Below, in pieces: positions 1-52,336 of a stretch of DNA of 64,000 bases. Position 1 is the stretch's first letter. The number at the start of each line of letters is the position of its first letter. Source of the DNA: Pedobacter segetis (GTDB lineage: Bacteria > Bacteroidota > Bacteroidia > Sphingobacteriales > Sphingobacteriaceae). A model generated the notes under the pieces. The model was given only the letters and a program-made list of their open reading frames with translations. It did no database searches and had not been told where the DNA came from. Position numbers and translations under genes: made by a program. The stretch is from assembly GCF_016623585.1 (NCBI RefSeq), contig NZ_JAEHFY010000003.1, positions 62,001-126,000 on the forward strand. Reading direction: 5' to 3'.

Positions 1-3000
1 CAGTTTTACTCTGTTCGCCTTTTGCCGATTTTGTTTTGTTCTTATTTTTAGTAACGACTTTGTTTTTAGCCTTTTGAGAAATCAGAACATTTTCCAAATG
101 TTTTTTAGCTTCTTCTCTAAAATTATTTAAAGGGCATTTGAATTTTCTTTGTTTATTACCTTCATCATCTTTAATAATAACGGTTTCTTTTTCTTCTATT
201 CCTTTAATATCATTTGAGATTTTATTTTCCTGATACCTTGCATTCAAATTATTCAAAAATTGAATGTGGCTATGCTTGGTAAAGGCAATGGTTAAAGCAT
301 CCATGGCATGATGCCTGTGGTCATTTCTTTTGGTCCAGTCGATTATTCTTTCTTTAAAACTGCCATCTTTCTTTTCAACCATTTCCGTAAGACCTAAAGA
401 TTTGTATTTACTGAAATTTAATTCCTGCATCACATTTATCAAGTCCCAATCTTCACGCAATCTGTCGGTAATACTGCCAGTTGTAGGCGTTACGGTTTTA
501 CAAATTTCTTGAAGCATATATCTCGCTTTCTTTGCGATATATTGGCTATCCCTTAAATCTCTATCAATAAAACCTTCTCCTATTTCTGAGCCTTTAAGTT
601 TTAGCTTTTTAAGCTTGGCCTTACTTATTCCTTCTTCATTATTTTTATAATTTTCTTGATGAAGCATTTCTATTCTTGCAGTAAATTCCAGTAATTTTTC
701 TTCGCCATATTTATCAAGGATATAATCAGCGGCAGTTTTATTTCCTTTATCTAAATTCACTAAACGTGGGACTAAAACTTTATTTGAAAAACTATCATCA
801 AATAATCTTGACTGGGGTATAATATGGTCAACATCATACAATTTCGAGAAAATCTGATTTTTCTGAACGTACTCGTTAGTATATAAATCCTTGTAGCCGT
901 TAAATTTCAACTCTTCGTAAAGTTTGTATCGGATAATATCATTACGAGTAGGGTTTGGAACGTTGAATTCAGTAACTAAAATTTCTCTTATTTTATCGTG
1001 TTTTAATTTTGCACTATTGATATTTGAGGTCATTTCCTCACGCTCCTTTGCATTTTTCTTTAACTCTCTCGCTAATTCTATCCTAATTTCATCGGGTTTC
1101 CCTAATGATGGTTCCGCAATAATTGCATTTACCACATTTACCATCTGATTAAGGATTTTTTCCACAACCGGATTTCTTAAACTGTTTTTTGGTAACAGTT
1201 CTAGTTTGTCTTTAAGAATTTTATTTTCAATTTCCTCTTTTGTTAAAGATGATGCCGAATGTCTATATTTTGCGGCTAAACAGGCTTTATCGTAGTGGAG
1301 TTCTTTAATAAACGGATATATATTTCTGATTGCCTTAGCACTTAAATTGCCGTAATCTGCCTGAAAAGTAACATTAGCCAATACTTTGGCAAACTCATTT
1401 TTGAAGCCAAATTTATATTCTAGTAATTTATAGAGTAGTTCATTGCCCGAAAAAGAATCGTCTTCAACATAAGAATACAAGAGGTGCCACAGTTGATAAG
1501 ATTCTTGTTTTTCAAAGCCCTTTCCATCTAATTCAGCATTGAAGTACAAAATTTTAGTGCTGATATTTTGAGATTGAAAAAAAGATGAAATGGTGTCTTT
1601 TATTTCTTTAGAAGACATATTTAACCATTCTATTTCATCATGCCCTTCTAACTCCATCATTTTAAAATAAGCTTTATAAAGAGCTTGATTTGTTCTGTTA
1701 CCTTCTAGTGTACTAAAGTTAAGTTCATAATCCCTTGGTTTGTATCCTAAAATCTCAAGACAGCTATCCTTAGACAGATTGCCTTTAATGTTTAGTTCAT
1801 TAAATAGCAATTGCTTAGAATCGCTATCAAAAAGTCGAATTTCTCCAGATAATTTATTTTTTATTTTTAAGTTGTTAAGGTTTTGCCAAATTTTAAACTC
1901 CTGAAAAAGGGGAGAGGATTTAGGTGCAACTTTTAACCCTATCTTTTTTTGTTTTCTTAGTCCTTCTGATTCTACTTCAATAATTTTGTTTTCAAATTCG
2001 CATAAACTCACTAAACCTTTTTGTGATTTTAGCTTACGCTGATAAAAGATTACTACATCTCTGATTTCGACTTTTAATTCAGGTGTTAATTCTTGATGAA
2101 ATTGAGCTTGCTTTTCCCAAATGGTTTCAAATTCATCTAAATAATCCTGACGGTAAAAAACCTGATTTTTGAGCTTATTGTGCTGGCTTTTTTGAAGTTG
2201 TTGATAAAGATATTCGCCAACAGTTTGCTTGTTGAAATAAAGTTCCTTGCTTCTGTCGCTAATTGCCCCCAAATACCCACTAGAACTATTGATGTTACTA
2301 TTGATTTCTGTAATCACAAAAGCCACTTCTTCTATTGAAAGTTGTTTGGTTAATCCCTCACATCTCCATTGATAAGCTTGTGATTTTTTGTCTTCTCTTG
2401 TTCCTTTGGCCTCTGCGGTATAAGTTTTTGCAATTGCTAAAAAACGCTTCCGTGTACCCTCTTTACCTTGTCCAGTTATCGCTTTTTTTAGGTCTTCAGT
2501 TAATATTTCAGGATAAAACTGCTTTTGAAACTCCCAAATTTTATCCAGCTCACTTTGCAAATCTGAACGATAGAAATCTGGTATATCTTTCTTCCCATTT
2601 TTTAAAAGCTTAAAAGCATACTCACCCGGGGTAATGTTTTCTTCATATAATTGTTTAGCCACGGTCATTCCATCAATTGCTTGTCCGTCATTCTCATCTT
2701 TATTATTGATTTTTCTACTGCTTTTATAACCTCTTTTTTTATTTATCATCAATAAAACACGACAGAACTCTTCTTTTGAAATTTCCTCAGTGGCAGCTTT
2801 TGCTCTTAGAGCATATGTTTCGTGGGTAGTGTTTTTACCGTCTTCGGCTAAAATGGAATCAGAATTCAATAGATGATGCTCTTTTAAGATTTGAATAAGA
2901 TTCTCTCTTCTTAGTTTATAGCGTTGTAAATTTCGTCTGGCACTTCTTTTTAAAGTTCTGTCTGCATTTGGTGACAGCCCTTTCCCAGAAGAAAAGTCAG

Positions 3001-3181
3001 ATTCAGGATTTTTAGATTCAGTAACTTTTCCGTTTTTGTCAACTTTTGAAAAGTTTTCATATTGTATTATCCTGGCACCTATTTTCTCAATAGAAGAAAC
3101 TTCAAATTCTGTTTCAGCTTCATTTACAAATGCCCAACCAATGGAAGTAGTACCCAAATCAAGTCCTAGGATTTTTTTCAT
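1..3181 (-). CDS. cas9: Type II-C CRISPR-associated endonuclease Cas9, 3' end cut by window edge
   Basis: RNA-guided DNA endonuclease of a type II CRISPR system. The minus-strand frame is open from an ATG at 3181 to base 1, giving 1,060 complete codons without a stop. RuvC-I is at the N-terminus (ILGLDLGTTSIGWAF, Asp8), followed by an arginine-rich bridge helix (RTLKRSARRNLQRYKLRR). RuvC-II is IRIELAREL with Glu702. The HNH motif is DVDHIIPQS with His786, followed by NKVLV. RuvC-III is HRHHAMDALTIAF with His958 and Asp961. All catalytic residues are intact, so an active nuclease is likely. The C-terminal PAM-interacting part, and presumably cas1, cas2 and the array, lie beyond the left edge. 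Large size and a neighbouring tracrRNA fit Bacteroidota subtype II-C; the subtype is inferred because the adaptation genes are not visible. Confidence 0.95.
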   Translation of the reverse strand, partial: MKKILGLDLGTTSIGWAFVNEAETEFEVSSIEKIGARIIQYENFSKVDKNGKVTESKNPESDFSSGKGLSPNADRTLKRSARRNLQRYKLRRENLIQILKEHHLLNSDSILAEDGKNTTHETYALRAKAATEEISKEEFCRVLLMINKKRGYKSSRKINNKDENDGQAIDGMTVAKQLYEENITPGEYAFKLLKNGKKDIPDFYRSDLQSELDKIWEFQKQFYPEILTEDLKKAITGQGKEGTRKRFLAIAKTYTAEAKGTREDKKSQAYQWRCEGLTKQLSIEEVAFVITEINSNINSSSGYLGAISDRSKELYFNKQTVGEYLYQQLQKSQHNKLKNQVFYRQDYLDEFETIWEKQAQFHQELTPELKVEIRDVVIFYQRKLKSQKGLVSLCEFENKIIEVESEGLRKQKKIGLKVAPKSSPLFQEFKIWQNLNNLKIKNKLSGEIRLFDSDSKQLLFNELNIKGNLSKDSCLEILGYKPRDYELNFSTLEGNRTNQALYKAYFKMMELEGHDEIEWLNMSSKEIKDTISSFFQSQNISTKILYFNAELDGKGFEKQESYQLWHLLYSYVEDDSFSGNELLYKLLEYKFGFKNEFAKVLANVTFQADYGNLSAKAIRNIYPFIKELHYDKACLAAKYRHSASSLTKEEIENKILKDKLELLPKNSLRNPVVEKILNQMVNVVNAIIAEPSLGKPDEIRIELARELKKNAKEREEMTSNINSAKLKHDKIREILVTEFNVPNPTRNDIIRYKLYEELKFNGYKDLYTNEYVQKNQIFSKLYDVDHIIPQSRLFDDSFSNKVLVPRLVNLDKGNKTAADYILDKYGEEKLLEFTARIEMLHQENYKNNEEGISKAKLKKLKLKGSEIGEGFIDRDLRDSQYIAKKARYMLQEICKTVTPTTGSITDRLREDWDLINVMQELNFSKYKSLGLTEMVEKKDGSFKERIIDWTKRNDHRHHAMDALTIAFTKHSHIQFLNNLNARYQENKISNDIKGIEEKETVIIKDDEGNKQRKFKCPLNNFREEAKKHLENVLISQKAKNKVVTKNKNKTKSAKGEQSKT

Positions 3182-3191
3182 ATTTGTATGC

Positions 3192-3229
3192 AATTACATT
3201 TCTTTAAAACTAAAAATAAAAATGTAATT
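3192..3229. repeat. Inverted repeat in the cas9 5' leader
   Basis: Perfect 10-bp arms AATTACATTT (3192-3201) and AAATGTAATT (3220-3229) are separated by 18 nt. The left arm begins 11 bp upstream of the cas9 start codon, and the element lies between cas9 and the tracrRNA promoter. It could be an operator or an mRNA hairpin. The region is very AT-rich, so chance is possible. Confidence 0.4.
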
Positions 3230-40820: not shown

Positions 40821-43613
40821 CTACCAGCCTGGTGAGAATGCTAGGCCAAAAACTGGCTTTGTAACATCTTTTCTATTAAATGGAAAAGCCAAATAAGGTT
40901 CTAACACAAAATAACCAAACACATTTACCCTAGTAGAAATACCGGCACTTAGGGCGGGTACCTTAACATTGGTTGCATAAACCGGTGTATTTGTTGGCCC
41001 AGCTGTTCCAATTTGATCAGGGCCTTTTTGGTTAAGTTTAATCACATCGCCTTTATCCCAAGCCAAGCCGGCATCAAAAAACAAGTTTAGCTCAGAAAAT
41101 AAAAACTTAGACGGAATTACAGAAAGTTTTTTTGGCCCGGTAAATGGTAAACGCACTTCAAAATTAGCAACGGCAATTCTGTTGCCAATTAGTTGGTTAA
41201 TATCAAAGCCGTTTGATGAAGTACCAGAACCGCCGTTGTTTTTATAAAAACTGTTTGCCTCATAACCTCTGATCAAATATGGGTAACCTATAAATAAAGG
41301 ATAAAGTTGTTGGTTATTAGTGTTTCCTAATCGGCCATAGCCATATAACCTACCTGCAAATGTTACTGGTTTTGCCCTAACGTATTTTCTTAAATCTATG
41401 GTTGGTGCAGTGTATTGAAACGTACCAAAATTTTGCTCTATACCAATTCTATATCTATATCCATTTAAAGGGGAGGCAACACCTTGGAAAGAATTATCGC
41501 CCACTAAAGCTGTATTTAATTGCAAAATACTGTAAGGAGTAAGTTGATAACCAAAACCGTTATTTTGATTATATTCTGCTAGGCTGATTTTTTTTCTATC
41601 CTGATAAAAAGGGCTTCCTACAAAACCGCCCCCCAAATCTTGATAGTAAGTGCTATACCTATCAACACGGTAAGAGTAGTGTGAGACTCCGGCACCAAAT
41701 TCTGCCCTTATAATTTTAGAGAAAGGGTAAGAGGTAAATCCTTGTGCCGATTCTTCAAAAACCCTAATGATATCATAATATTGATTATAGGCCGGTATTG
41801 TGCCGCCTCCTTGGGCGGGCAAACTGGTTTGCTCTATACCATAAGTGCCAAATTGATAAGGTATGTGTGAAATAGCACCGCCCCAATTCCATCTGCTTTG
41901 TTGGTTTACATAAGCTATCTGAGCGCCAAAATCATAAATTTCTCCATTAACATTGGCTGCTGCAAAAATTTGGTCCCTACTTAAAATATCGCTAAAAATT
42001 GCTTGCACACCACCAGATAAACCTGTGCCAAACCTACTTGTAGAAACTCCGGCACCGGTGTTTGCTATATAATCTAATTTGAATTTTGGCCTAAACGGAA
42101 TTGATTTTACGGAATCTGTTGGGAGATCATTATAAACCTGGAAGTTTTCTAAATTTTTGTTAATGATGTTAACCCCAACAGAATTTGGAGGTGGAAGTGT
42201 AGCTGCAGCTAAGTTTACATACTCTGGATCAACAACTTTACCTTTAAAAGCTGTATCTTTTGCATTATAAAGTATATATTTTTGATGTCTATAATAAGAA
42301 TATACGACATCATTATCGTTAGAAATACTTAATGCCGGCGAGTTTTCTGTGATGCCACTTATCCCTGTAAAATAATCTGTTAATTGTTCCACTTTACCAG
42401 TTGCAATTGTATATCTGTAAAGATTTCTAAACCCATCTCTGTTAGAAAGGAAATATATCTTAGAGTCGTTTTCTGCGAAAAGCGGATTATAGTTATTTGC
42501 TGCCTCAAACAGATCAATCCTTTTGGTAGATTTATCTTTTAAATCCATAATGGCCATTCCCATGGGGATTGCGGCAGCAACATTATCGCTTTGTTCGCTA
42601 TATTTATCAGTAGAGAAAACTATTTTAGTTCCGTCTGCAGAGTAAGATGGTTGGTATTCTGTGTATTTATCATTAGTTAGCTGCGTAACTTCTTGCGAAG
42701 TAAAATTATAAGAGAACATATCGCTTTGGCCATTCTTTAAACCTGTAAAGGCAACATTATCCCCATCCGGGGACCAGGTTAGATTTCCAAATTGTTCTAC
42801 GTCTCCCATGCCTTTTTCTAGCAAAGTTTTCCCGTTAGAAACATCAACAACAACCAATTTATTTCTTCCTTCGGCAAAAACACTAAAGGCAAACTTTTTA
42901 CTATCAGGAGACCAAGCACCTGCGGACTCTATAAAATTAAATTCATCTATGTGGGAATCGCTTATTTTTGAAGTTAACTTCCTAATCGTAGTCCCTGTAT
43001 GGGCATCTGCCAAGTATAAATCGATAGAAAACAAATCCCTTTCAGAAAGATAGGCCAAATAATTGCCATCGGGGCTAATTGCCGGTGCCACATTCATTTC
43101 CCCACCATTTGTCTCATCAACAATTTTTGTACCTATCGGTGTTTGGGTGGTGTCTTTTAGATAAGGCTTGTAAGCATTTTCTAAAGAACTTTTCCATAAA
43201 CCAGACAAGGTTTTATCATCATAGCCAAAAGTTCTTCTTATGGCAATTTGATAGCCGTACTTGGCTGTTGATTTAAAGAAGGGAAAAATTGTGGTATCAC
43301 CATAGGTAGAGCCTATAAAGGCCCAAAATGCCTGCCCGTAACGATAGGGGAAATACTTGCTATTGGTGGTTAAATCTTCTAAAGTTGGGACATCGTTATT
43401 CAAAACTGCATCCCTCATCCACATTGCTGTGTTTGCATCTATTTTACCCAAAGATAAATATTCTGCCATACCTTCTACCATCCAAAGGGGCAAATTTCCT
43501 AAGTTTTCTAATTGGGTAGAATCTCCTTCTATTAATGAATGATATTGAAAAGCATGTACCAATTCATGACCCAAGACATGGCGTGTTTGGGCATTGATCT
43601 CTTGTAAAGGCAT
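40821..43613 (-). CDS. Outer-membrane protease/TolB-propeller/barrel protein, 3' part of a frameshifted gene
   Basis: 930 aa downstream part of one gene broken from its 5' part (43628-44023). It opens with a gluzincin motif HVLGHELVHAFQYH and WMVEGMAEYLS (zinc Glu). A TolB/PD40 beta-propeller follows (repeats such as PAISPDGNYLAYLSE, GAWSPDSKKFAF, LTWSPDGDNVAF and PSYSADGTKIVFS). The last 420 or so residues form a probable BamA-like outer-membrane barrel ending FGLAFSPGW. The whole would be an exported surface metallopeptidase or a biogenesis factor. The annotated ATG is probably internal, not the real start. Confidence 0.8.
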   Translation of the reverse strand: MPLQEINAQTRHVLGHELVHAFQYHSLIEGDSTQLENLGNLPLWMVEGMAEYLSLGKIDANTAMWMRDAVLNNDVPTLEDLTTNSKYFPYRYGQAFWAFIGSTYGDTTIFPFFKSTAKYGYQIAIRRTFGYDDKTLSGLWKSSLENAYKPYLKDTTQTPIGTKIVDETNGGEMNVAPAISPDGNYLAYLSERDLFSIDLYLADAHTGTTIRKLTSKISDSHIDEFNFIESAGAWSPDSKKFAFSVFAEGRNKLVVVDVSNGKTLLEKGMGDVEQFGNLTWSPDGDNVAFTGLKNGQSDMFSYNFTSQEVTQLTNDKYTEYQPSYSADGTKIVFSTDKYSEQSDNVAAAIPMGMAIMDLKDKSTKRIDLFEAANNYNPLFAENDSKIYFLSNRDGFRNLYRYTIATGKVEQLTDYFTGISGITENSPALSISNDNDVVYSYYRHQKYILYNAKDTAFKGKVVDPEYVNLAAATLPPPNSVGVNIINKNLENFQVYNDLPTDSVKSIPFRPKFKLDYIANTGAGVSTSRFGTGLSGGVQAIFSDILSRDQIFAAANVNGEIYDFGAQIAYVNQQSRWNWGGAISHIPYQFGTYGIEQTSLPAQGGGTIPAYNQYYDIIRVFEESAQGFTSYPFSKIIRAEFGAGVSHYSYRVDRYSTYYQDLGGGFVGSPFYQDRKKISLAEYNQNNGFGYQLTPYSILQLNTALVGDNSFQGVASPLNGYRYRIGIEQNFGTFQYTAPTIDLRKYVRAKPVTFAGRLYGYGRLGNTNNQQLYPLFIGYPYLIRGYEANSFYKNNGGSGTSSNGFDINQLIGNRIAVANFEVRLPFTGPKKLSVIPSKFLFSELNLFFDAGLAWDKGDVIKLNQKGPDQIGTAGPTNTPVYATNVKVPALSAGISTRVNVFGYFVLEPYLAFPFNRKDVTKPVFGLAFSPGW

Positions 43614-43627
43614 TACAACTCTATTTT

Positions 43628-44023
43628 TTAAGCCTTCTGTAACGCCCCTGTTCCAACACCAATTTCTCCGCCTATGGCTGTTGTTTGCTGAAACTCTGGG
43701 GAGTTACCGTACAAAATGATAGGGTTTGGTTTTTTAAAGGTATCTCTAAAAATTTGTTGATGCAGGGCATACCAAGCTTCACTTTCTTTTGCAAATTCTT
43801 TAATTAAGCTATCGTTTTTAGTGTAATAATAAAGATCAAAGTGTGGGGTTTCGTAAACTTTAAATTTTAAGTTTTTATACCTTACTTTATTTTGCCCAAA
43901 ATATTGCGCTTGTGCGCCAAGGGAGCAAAACAAAATCAGTATCACTAAAAAACCCAAAGATTTTTTAGGATTAAAGGCAGTTACAATTTTTTTCATATCG
44001 TACATTTTAGATTGCAATTTCAT
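43628..44023 (-). CDS. 5' fragment of the frameshifted protease/propeller/barrel gene
   Basis: 131 aa. A signal peptide (hydrophobic FLVILILFCSLGAQAQ) is followed by a peptidase-MA-like N-terminal region (VRYKNLKFKVYETPHFDLYYY) that ends abruptly in ALQKA. After the G run at 43645-43648 the other frame reads VTEGLKNRVVMPLQEIN without a break into the next fragment. One missing G (four where five would restore GTGGVTEG) explains the split. The better start within the fragment is Met10 (MKKIVTAF). It may be a sequencing error, a mutation or a phase-variable tract. Confidence 0.8.
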   Translation of the reverse strand: MKLQSKMYDMKKIVTAFNPKKSLGFLVILILFCSLGAQAQYFGQNKVRYKNLKFKVYETPHFDLYYYTKNDSLIKEFAKESEAWYALHQQIFRDTFKKPNPIILYGNSPEFQQTTAIGGEIGVGTGALQKA

Positions 44024-51382: not shown

Positions 51383-52336
51383 TTATTTTCTTTTCATTAC
51401 TTTTTTAACAGCATCAACAATATTGCTGCTATCCAAACCATATTTTTTCATCAACTCTTCTGGTTTCCCGCTTTCGCCAAAACTATCGTTTACGGCAACA
51501 AATTCCATTGGGGTGGGTGTATGGGTTGATAATAACTGAGCAATGCTTTCGCCTAAGCCACCATATCTGTTGTGCTCTTCGCAGGTTACCACACATCCTG
51601 TTTTCTTGGCTGATTTTAAAACAGCCTCTTCATCCAAAGGTTTTATGGTATGTATATTGATGATTTCTACGTTAATCCCCTCTTCTGCTAGTTTTTCGCC
51701 AGCTAATATCGCTTCCCAAACTAAATGGCCTGTAGCAAAAATACTTACATCGGTACCTTCATTAACCATCCACGCTTTACCTATCTCAAATTTTTGATCG
51801 GCAGGAGTAAAAACTGGCACAACAGGGCGACCGAAACGCAAGTAAACAGGGCCGTGAAATTCGGCAATTGCTTCAGTTGCTGCCTTGGTTTGGTTGTAAT
51901 CACAAGGATTGATCACTGTCATGCCGGGAAGCATTTTCATTAAACCTATATCTTCTAAAATTTGGTGGGTGGCACCATCCTCGCCTAGCGTTAAACCGGC
52001 ATGCGACGCACAAATTTTAACGTTCTTATCAGAATAAGCAACAGACTGGCGTATTTGATCGTAAACCCTACCTGTAGAGAAGTTAGCGAAGGTACCAGTG
52101 AAAGGGATTTTCCCGCCAATGGTTAATCCGGCCGCCATACCGATCATATTCGCTTCTGCAATACCCACTTGGATAAAACGATCGGGAAATTCATTAATAA
52201 AATCTTGCATCTTTAATGATCCCACTAAATCTGCACAAAGGGCAACCACTTCTTTATTTTTTTTGCCCGCTGCCAATAAACCGGCACCAAAACCAGAACG
52301 GGTATCTTTTTTTTCTGTATATGTGTATTTTTTCAT
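51383..52336 (-). CDS. Transketolase, C-terminal subunit
   Basis: 317 aa, carrying the Pyr-binding and C-terminal domains of a split transketolase. The conserved catalytic Glu lies in FIQVGIAEANMIGMAAGL, and LTLGEDGATHQILEDIGLM and CEEHNRYGGLGESIA are family landmarks. It works with the N-terminal subunit encoded 100 bp upstream (52437-53282). A weak hairpin AAGCCGAAGT/ACTTCGGCTT (51334-51360) lies beyond its 3' end. Confidence 0.92.
   Translation of the reverse strand: MKKYTYTEKKDTRSGFGAGLLAAGKKNKEVVALCADLVGSLKMQDFINEFPDRFIQVGIAEANMIGMAAGLTIGGKIPFTGTFANFSTGRVYDQIRQSVAYSDKNVKICASHAGLTLGEDGATHQILEDIGLMKMLPGMTVINPCDYNQTKAATEAIAEFHGPVYLRFGRPVVPVFTPADQKFEIGKAWMVNEGTDVSIFATGHLVWEAILAGEKLAEEGINVEIINIHTIKPLDEEAVLKSAKKTGCVVTCEEHNRYGGLGESIAQLLSTHTPTPMEFVAVNDSFGESGKPEELMKKYGLDSSNIVDAVKKVMKRK

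Follow-up and report, generated by a model that had tools for sequence, protein, structure and literature searches.

Does the locus described here hold two neighbouring genes or a single gene broken in two and, if broken, is the break a mutation of the living cell, an error of the assembly or a device by which the protein is switched on and off? Within the window, by which we mean the whole stretch of 64,000 nucleotides that was analysed, the gene lies on the minus strand, which the earlier note had left unstated, and its features are collected in Table 1. Its two open frames differ by a net shift of -1 at a run of four G, which reads CCCC on the plus strand. The first frame has GVGTGALQKA as its C-terminal end and the second part begins with MPLQEIN, and the other frame reads GVTEGLKNRVVMPLQEIN across the junction and continues into the HELVH motif. 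Translation, together with a codon comparison with relatives, bears out the earlier note, which had proposed a one-base frameshift at the G run, a frame ending in ALQKA, another frame entering HELVH and a clean frame of 930 codons downstream, in which indeed no stop was found.

Table 1. Features of the broken gene, in positions of the window
Feature	Position	Strand	Basis and remarks
First part of the broken gene, with the signal segment and the start of the peptidase domain	43628..44023	(-)	131 codons; list of open reading frames
Run of four G where the frame changes by -1, within the codons for GTGGVTEG	43645..43648	(-)	Sequence and codon comparison with relatives
Second part of the broken gene	40821..43613	(-)	930 codons from the first ATG, without a stop; list of open reading frames
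HELVH zinc-binding motif of the peptidase domain	43554..43568	(-)	Translation; about 26 codons past the break
TolB-like beta-propeller	42228..43130	(-)	Limits approximate, carried over from the L041 model; PD40/DPPIV_N, TolB profile match, model and Foldseek
BamA-like (Omp85-type) outer-membrane barrel	40833..41972	(-)	Limits approximate, from strands 676-1055 of the L041 model; Foldseek

The comparison with relatives indicates that both frames are parts of one ancestral gene, as had been claimed. In Pedobacter psychrophilus (G040, locus L041) both parts lie in one frame and encode one protein of 1,057 aa, and a tblastn search of the window with this protein gives a match divided over the two frames, with identities of 88% and 84%. 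The first part is 83-84% identical to the N-terminal ends of the relatives' proteins, and by comparison with L041 it is likely to start at 43996 rather than at 44023; the second part is covered over its residues 1-930 in the relatives listed. In the relatives a single frame of 1,021-1,103 codons comprises a signal segment, a zinc-peptidase domain with HELVH, a TolB-like propeller and a BamA-like barrel. The break in the window falls inside the peptidase domain and leaves the signal segment on one side, with the catalytic motif, propeller and barrel on the other.

The protein is predicted to be a zinc peptidase with a HELVH domain and to sit in the outer membrane. The HExxH signature expected of a Peptidase MA domain is present as HELVH, and Peptidase_MA_2 gives a match of 29.8 bits to residues 87-273 of L041, an intact relative, the cut-off being 32.4, and one above that cut-off, of 35.1 bits, to residues 90-274 of L120. 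Searching Pfam, the second part matched PD40 and DPPIV_N propeller repeats and also BSP, the first part had no match, and no Omp85 family HMM was matched, so that the barrel assignment rests on the fold. TolB-related models of NCBIfam were matched below their cut-offs, and among the structures of the PDB a profile built from 24 relatives finds TolB chains, with an E value of 4e-16. The model that AlphaFold gives for L041 has a mean pLDDT of 63, with low values over residues 26-142, and displays a propeller and a C-terminal barrel; in Foldseek the former matches TolB folds and the latter BamA structures, with a best E value of 5e-10.

This architecture recalls WD40-Omp85, a subfamily of the Omp85/TpsB superfamily (Heinz and Lithgow 2014, PMC4104836), which likewise carries a propeller most like TolB ahead of an Omp85-type barrel. 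Both features, the C-terminal barrel (in the model, at a mean pLDDT of 63) and the N-terminal TolB-like propeller, were found here. However, the present protein has in addition a HELVH peptidase domain before the propeller, of which the accessible part of that paper makes no mention for the group, its 'Metallo' group carrying another domain (PF00149); furthermore, the copy in the window is broken. HELVH is shared with the Peptidase MA and BSP families (PF13485, PF04450), Peptidase_MA_2 matching L041 and L120, and BSP the region of the motif, although the scores are near the cut-offs and the domain is here fused to a propeller and a barrel.

The distribution of breaks was explored in a search of the family, in which 349 of 399 genomes had a match at E values up to 1e-12 and the rows of every matched genome were inspected. 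In the genus the gene is present in 16 of 18 genomes, and 13 of these 16 (G113 and G133 among them) keep GTGGVTEG in one frame. The other three are broken at this motif by three different lesions lying within 12 bp, namely the loss of one base in the window, the loss of seven bases in Pedobacter cryophilus AR-3-17 (G084), a species on which a literature search found no paper, and a change of GAA to TAA in OSS_A.mb.40, a MAG of the same genus (G065). Outside the genus one further lesion was found, in Desertivirga xinjiangensis (G006; L103 / L126), where a TAG stop falls late in the barrel and is unrelated to the break site. Thus, once contig ends and one gap of N are set aside, lesions inside the gene amount to four genomes among the 349 matched. 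Excluded from this count were G113, with a gap of N and a duplicated piece in the gene, G133, with the gene on two contigs, 11 genomes from outside the genus in which a contig end cuts the gene to a piece, and 8 whose matches were no more than distant (23-26% identity, E values of 1e-22 to 1e-27). The repeated piece in G113 (L038 / L040) belongs to the propeller region, stands beside the run of N inside the gene and is probably a scaffolding artefact.

Counted by hand, 313 of the 314 full-length copies outside the genus are intact. In one batch all 80 genomes had a full-length match free of stops, and in another 69 of 79 did, the remaining ten comprising 2 genomes with a piece cut by a contig end and the 8 whose matches are distant; a frame of more than 1,020 codons was found in 77 of 80 named loci, which do not include this genome, the exceptions being P. 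cryophilus, the MAG and Desertivirga. Broken full-length copies are therefore 3 of 14 in the genus against 1 of 314 outside it (p 2.4e-4, if lesions are independent), and the placement of three of the four lesions within 12 bp has a p of about 1.6e-4, assuming independent lesions placed uniformly at random. The earlier note had pointed to homologues naturally encoded as two proteins with this junction as the finding that would speak against it. The single frame of 13 of the 16 genus genomes disagrees with such an arrangement, whereas the two other species broken within 12 bp partly resemble it; given three unlike lesions and an intact gene in close relatives, we consider this a break that recurs rather than a junction natural to two genes.

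As regards the age of the break, the second part has a dN/dS of 0.040 when the window is compared with P. psychrophilus, a rough value in view of a synonymous distance as high as 1.8; G065 compared with G138, its intact sister, gives 0.032. At sites that are otherwise invariant the second part in the window has 2 unusual residues in 443, the intact G040 having 4 in 445 and the intact G143 5 in 446. With dN/dS as low as about 0.04 the breaks are of recent date or else, as regards this genome, erroneous, in agreement with two of the possibilities that the earlier note had left side by side.

We propose, at a probability of roughly one half, that the gene in the window has recently become a null allele, at a site where breaks recur, and that the break is real in this genome. 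According to this proposal the ancestor encoded one exported protein consisting of a signal segment, a zinc peptidase, a TolB-like propeller and an Omp85-type barrel. Provided that the assembly is right, one base was lost in the codons for GTGGVTEG, and the exported part terminates inside the peptidase domain, the HELVH motif, the propeller and the barrel being left in a frame without a signal segment. If translated from an internal ATG, this second frame would stay in the cell, with the consequent loss of function. Breaks recur at this site in the genus, two other species having different lesions within 12 bp of it. We lean towards a mutational hotspot in a G+C-rich stretch, combined with tolerance of the loss, over selection for the loss, and the whole looks like a repeated loss of the gene rather than a built-in switch. 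The base composition is consistent with this: in five intact relatives the best 30-base window at the site ranks by its G+C within the top 0.1-4.3%, and in three of the five the folding of 60-base windows of the sense strand is in the lowest 5%. These values, each being that of the best of several windows, lend mild support to a mutational or sequencing hotspot. In having a single lesion, frames otherwise clean and intact relatives, the locus resembles an ordinary recent pseudogene or frameshift error, from which it differs by the different lesions of two other species within 12 bp.

The alternative that survives best, somewhat less probable than a real mutation and yet a serious contender, is an error of base calling or assembly in this genome, the gene of the living cell being intact and the coincidence with the other lesions being due to luck or to a sequencing difficulty shared by the G+C-rich stretch. 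The change is of one base in a short homopolymer, and the second part, with fewer unusual residues than its intact counterparts in G040 and G143, looks like that of a working gene. A generally poor assembly as the cause was considered and found to be unsupported. The gene is the only one split in the window among 45 P. psychrophilus open reading frames with a counterpart there, three of the rows with stops there being on examination differences at starts or ends that were not counted as breaks. When the comparison is extended along the contig, no other of the 112 frames compared is split, from which it follows that this assembly is not generally poor. Rows with internal stops on this extended part come from short frames, of 60-125 aa, and 3 frames besides the split one, of 63-91 aa, showed an internal stop; these were presumed to be shadow frames and left out of the count of breaks.

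In the reverse direction 2 of 135 frames of this genome are split in P. psychrophilus, both by one-base breaks, so that breaks of this size, whether errors or young mutations, are not uncommon in genomes of this sort, a point on the side of an error. One of them is the counterpart of the gene at 51386-52336 (-) of the window, which we take to be a transketolase subunit; it has lost one base shortly before its end, the window copy being intact. The other is the counterpart of G000:C33:126353-127606 (-), with a one-base loss about 88 codons into the gene. A motif GGTGG...GAA common to the first four breaks seen, that of the presumed transketolase included, was dropped as another break in P. psychrophilus is without it. 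Against an error in this genome stands, apart from the single break in 112 frames, the nature of the lesions that two other data sets show there, a loss of seven bases and a nonsense change, which are untypical of homopolymer errors.

It is improbable, though less so than the readings that follow, that the DNA for GTGGVTEG is a true hot spot in the strict sense, at which the gene would be broken time after time with a different scar, either because a mobile element not seen in these assemblies has a guided or homing nuclease that recognises it, or because a stop exactly there is selected. More doubtful still is the proposal that a nuclease, through CRISPR self-targeting or as another guided or homing enzyme, has cut the site repeatedly and that the lesions are scars of repair or escape mutations. 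The three different lesions, crowded into 12 bp at a conserved motif, would agree with it, and Cas1 (Pfam) occurs in 8 of the 18 genus genomes, among them all three broken ones, being absent from G040 and G143, the intact relatives of this genome, and from G138, the intact sister of G065. However, the remaining five genomes with Cas1, G054 among them, have an intact motif, and the association of Cas1 with a broken gene reaches a p of 0.10. The arrays adjoining Cas1 yielded 70 spacers in this genome (one of them from a small separate repeat cluster), 55 in G084, 13 in G054, 121 in G075, 13 in G091 and 16 in G128; G065 gave 9 from an array cut by the contig end, and G018 has no array on the stretch examined. 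None of the spacers extracted fits the break site, neither the 70 of this genome, nor the 55 of G084, nor the 9 of the incomplete G065 array. Four matches of spacers to loci of the gene or their flanks, with 7 mismatches, are away from the break site.

A degenerate search of the 18 genus genomes, with up to 3 mismatches, likewise gave no second copy of the motif. A BLAST search with 111 bases of the site found, besides the gene, only short chance-like matches and no spacer-like second copy, the best other match in this genome being of 24 bases (E 0.03) and the best in any genome having an E value of 0.002, in G075, where the gene is intact. CRISPR self-targeting, which was raised after Cas1 had been seen in all three broken genomes, was rejected on the ground that none of the spacers of this genome and of G084 fits the site, the array of G065 being covered as far as the contig end, with 9 spacers.

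A long frame at 2-3193 (-), at the very beginning of the window, presumably encodes a Cas9-like protein, and Cas1 (Pfam) and an array with a 46-bp repeat are found just beyond the window on the same contig (G000:C33:53113-59862), near a frame that we assume to be Cas2-like. The repeat of this genome (L157 13113-18390) is identical to that of G075 (L182), other versions being present in G084 and G065. G075 is a more distant species, with a dN of about 0.21 in the counterpart of the broken gene, and the CRISPR system may have moved between species.

Phase-variable genes are known in which single-base shifts occur at a homopolymer in genes for surface proteins, and a switchable tract had been among the possibilities of the earlier note. 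A G run, or a slip in translation, would in that case turn the protein on and off, and the present shift, of a single base in a homopolymer, is of this kind, as is the presumed surface location of the protein, predicted in the outer membrane. The tract differs from those genes in being short, at just four bases, and unconserved, the codon comparison finding no G4 run at the break position in intact relatives of the genus. The gene in the window moreover holds 13 other G/C runs of at least 4, one of them a G6 (41634-41629), and also an A8 at 41595, all of them intact. With the run unconserved and longer runs intact a switch is unlikely, and the seven-base loss and the stop codon at the same spot are no changes of tract length, so that we give this possibility very little credence and do not uphold that part of the note. 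Just as little is to be said for a gene that now works as two proteins, the second begun at an internal ATG: the junction is common to three species, an in-frame ATG follows shortly downstream and the dN/dS of the second part is low, but the second part carries an outer-membrane barrel without a signal segment, the junction cuts the peptidase domain, and the sister of G065 (G138) and the nearest relative of this genome (G040) are intact, the low dN/dS therefore reflecting mostly the time before the break.

That one gene is broken would be ordinary; the unusual point is that, within one genus, three species carry three mutations in 12 bp of a gene that is otherwise clean, and these three different lesions are the sole surprising fact of the locus. 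If reads do not confirm the break in this genome, the case would serve as a warning about assembly errors. If they do confirm it, the recent null allele that we favour would offer a small and testable case of the repeated, position-specific loss of a conserved outer-membrane protein.
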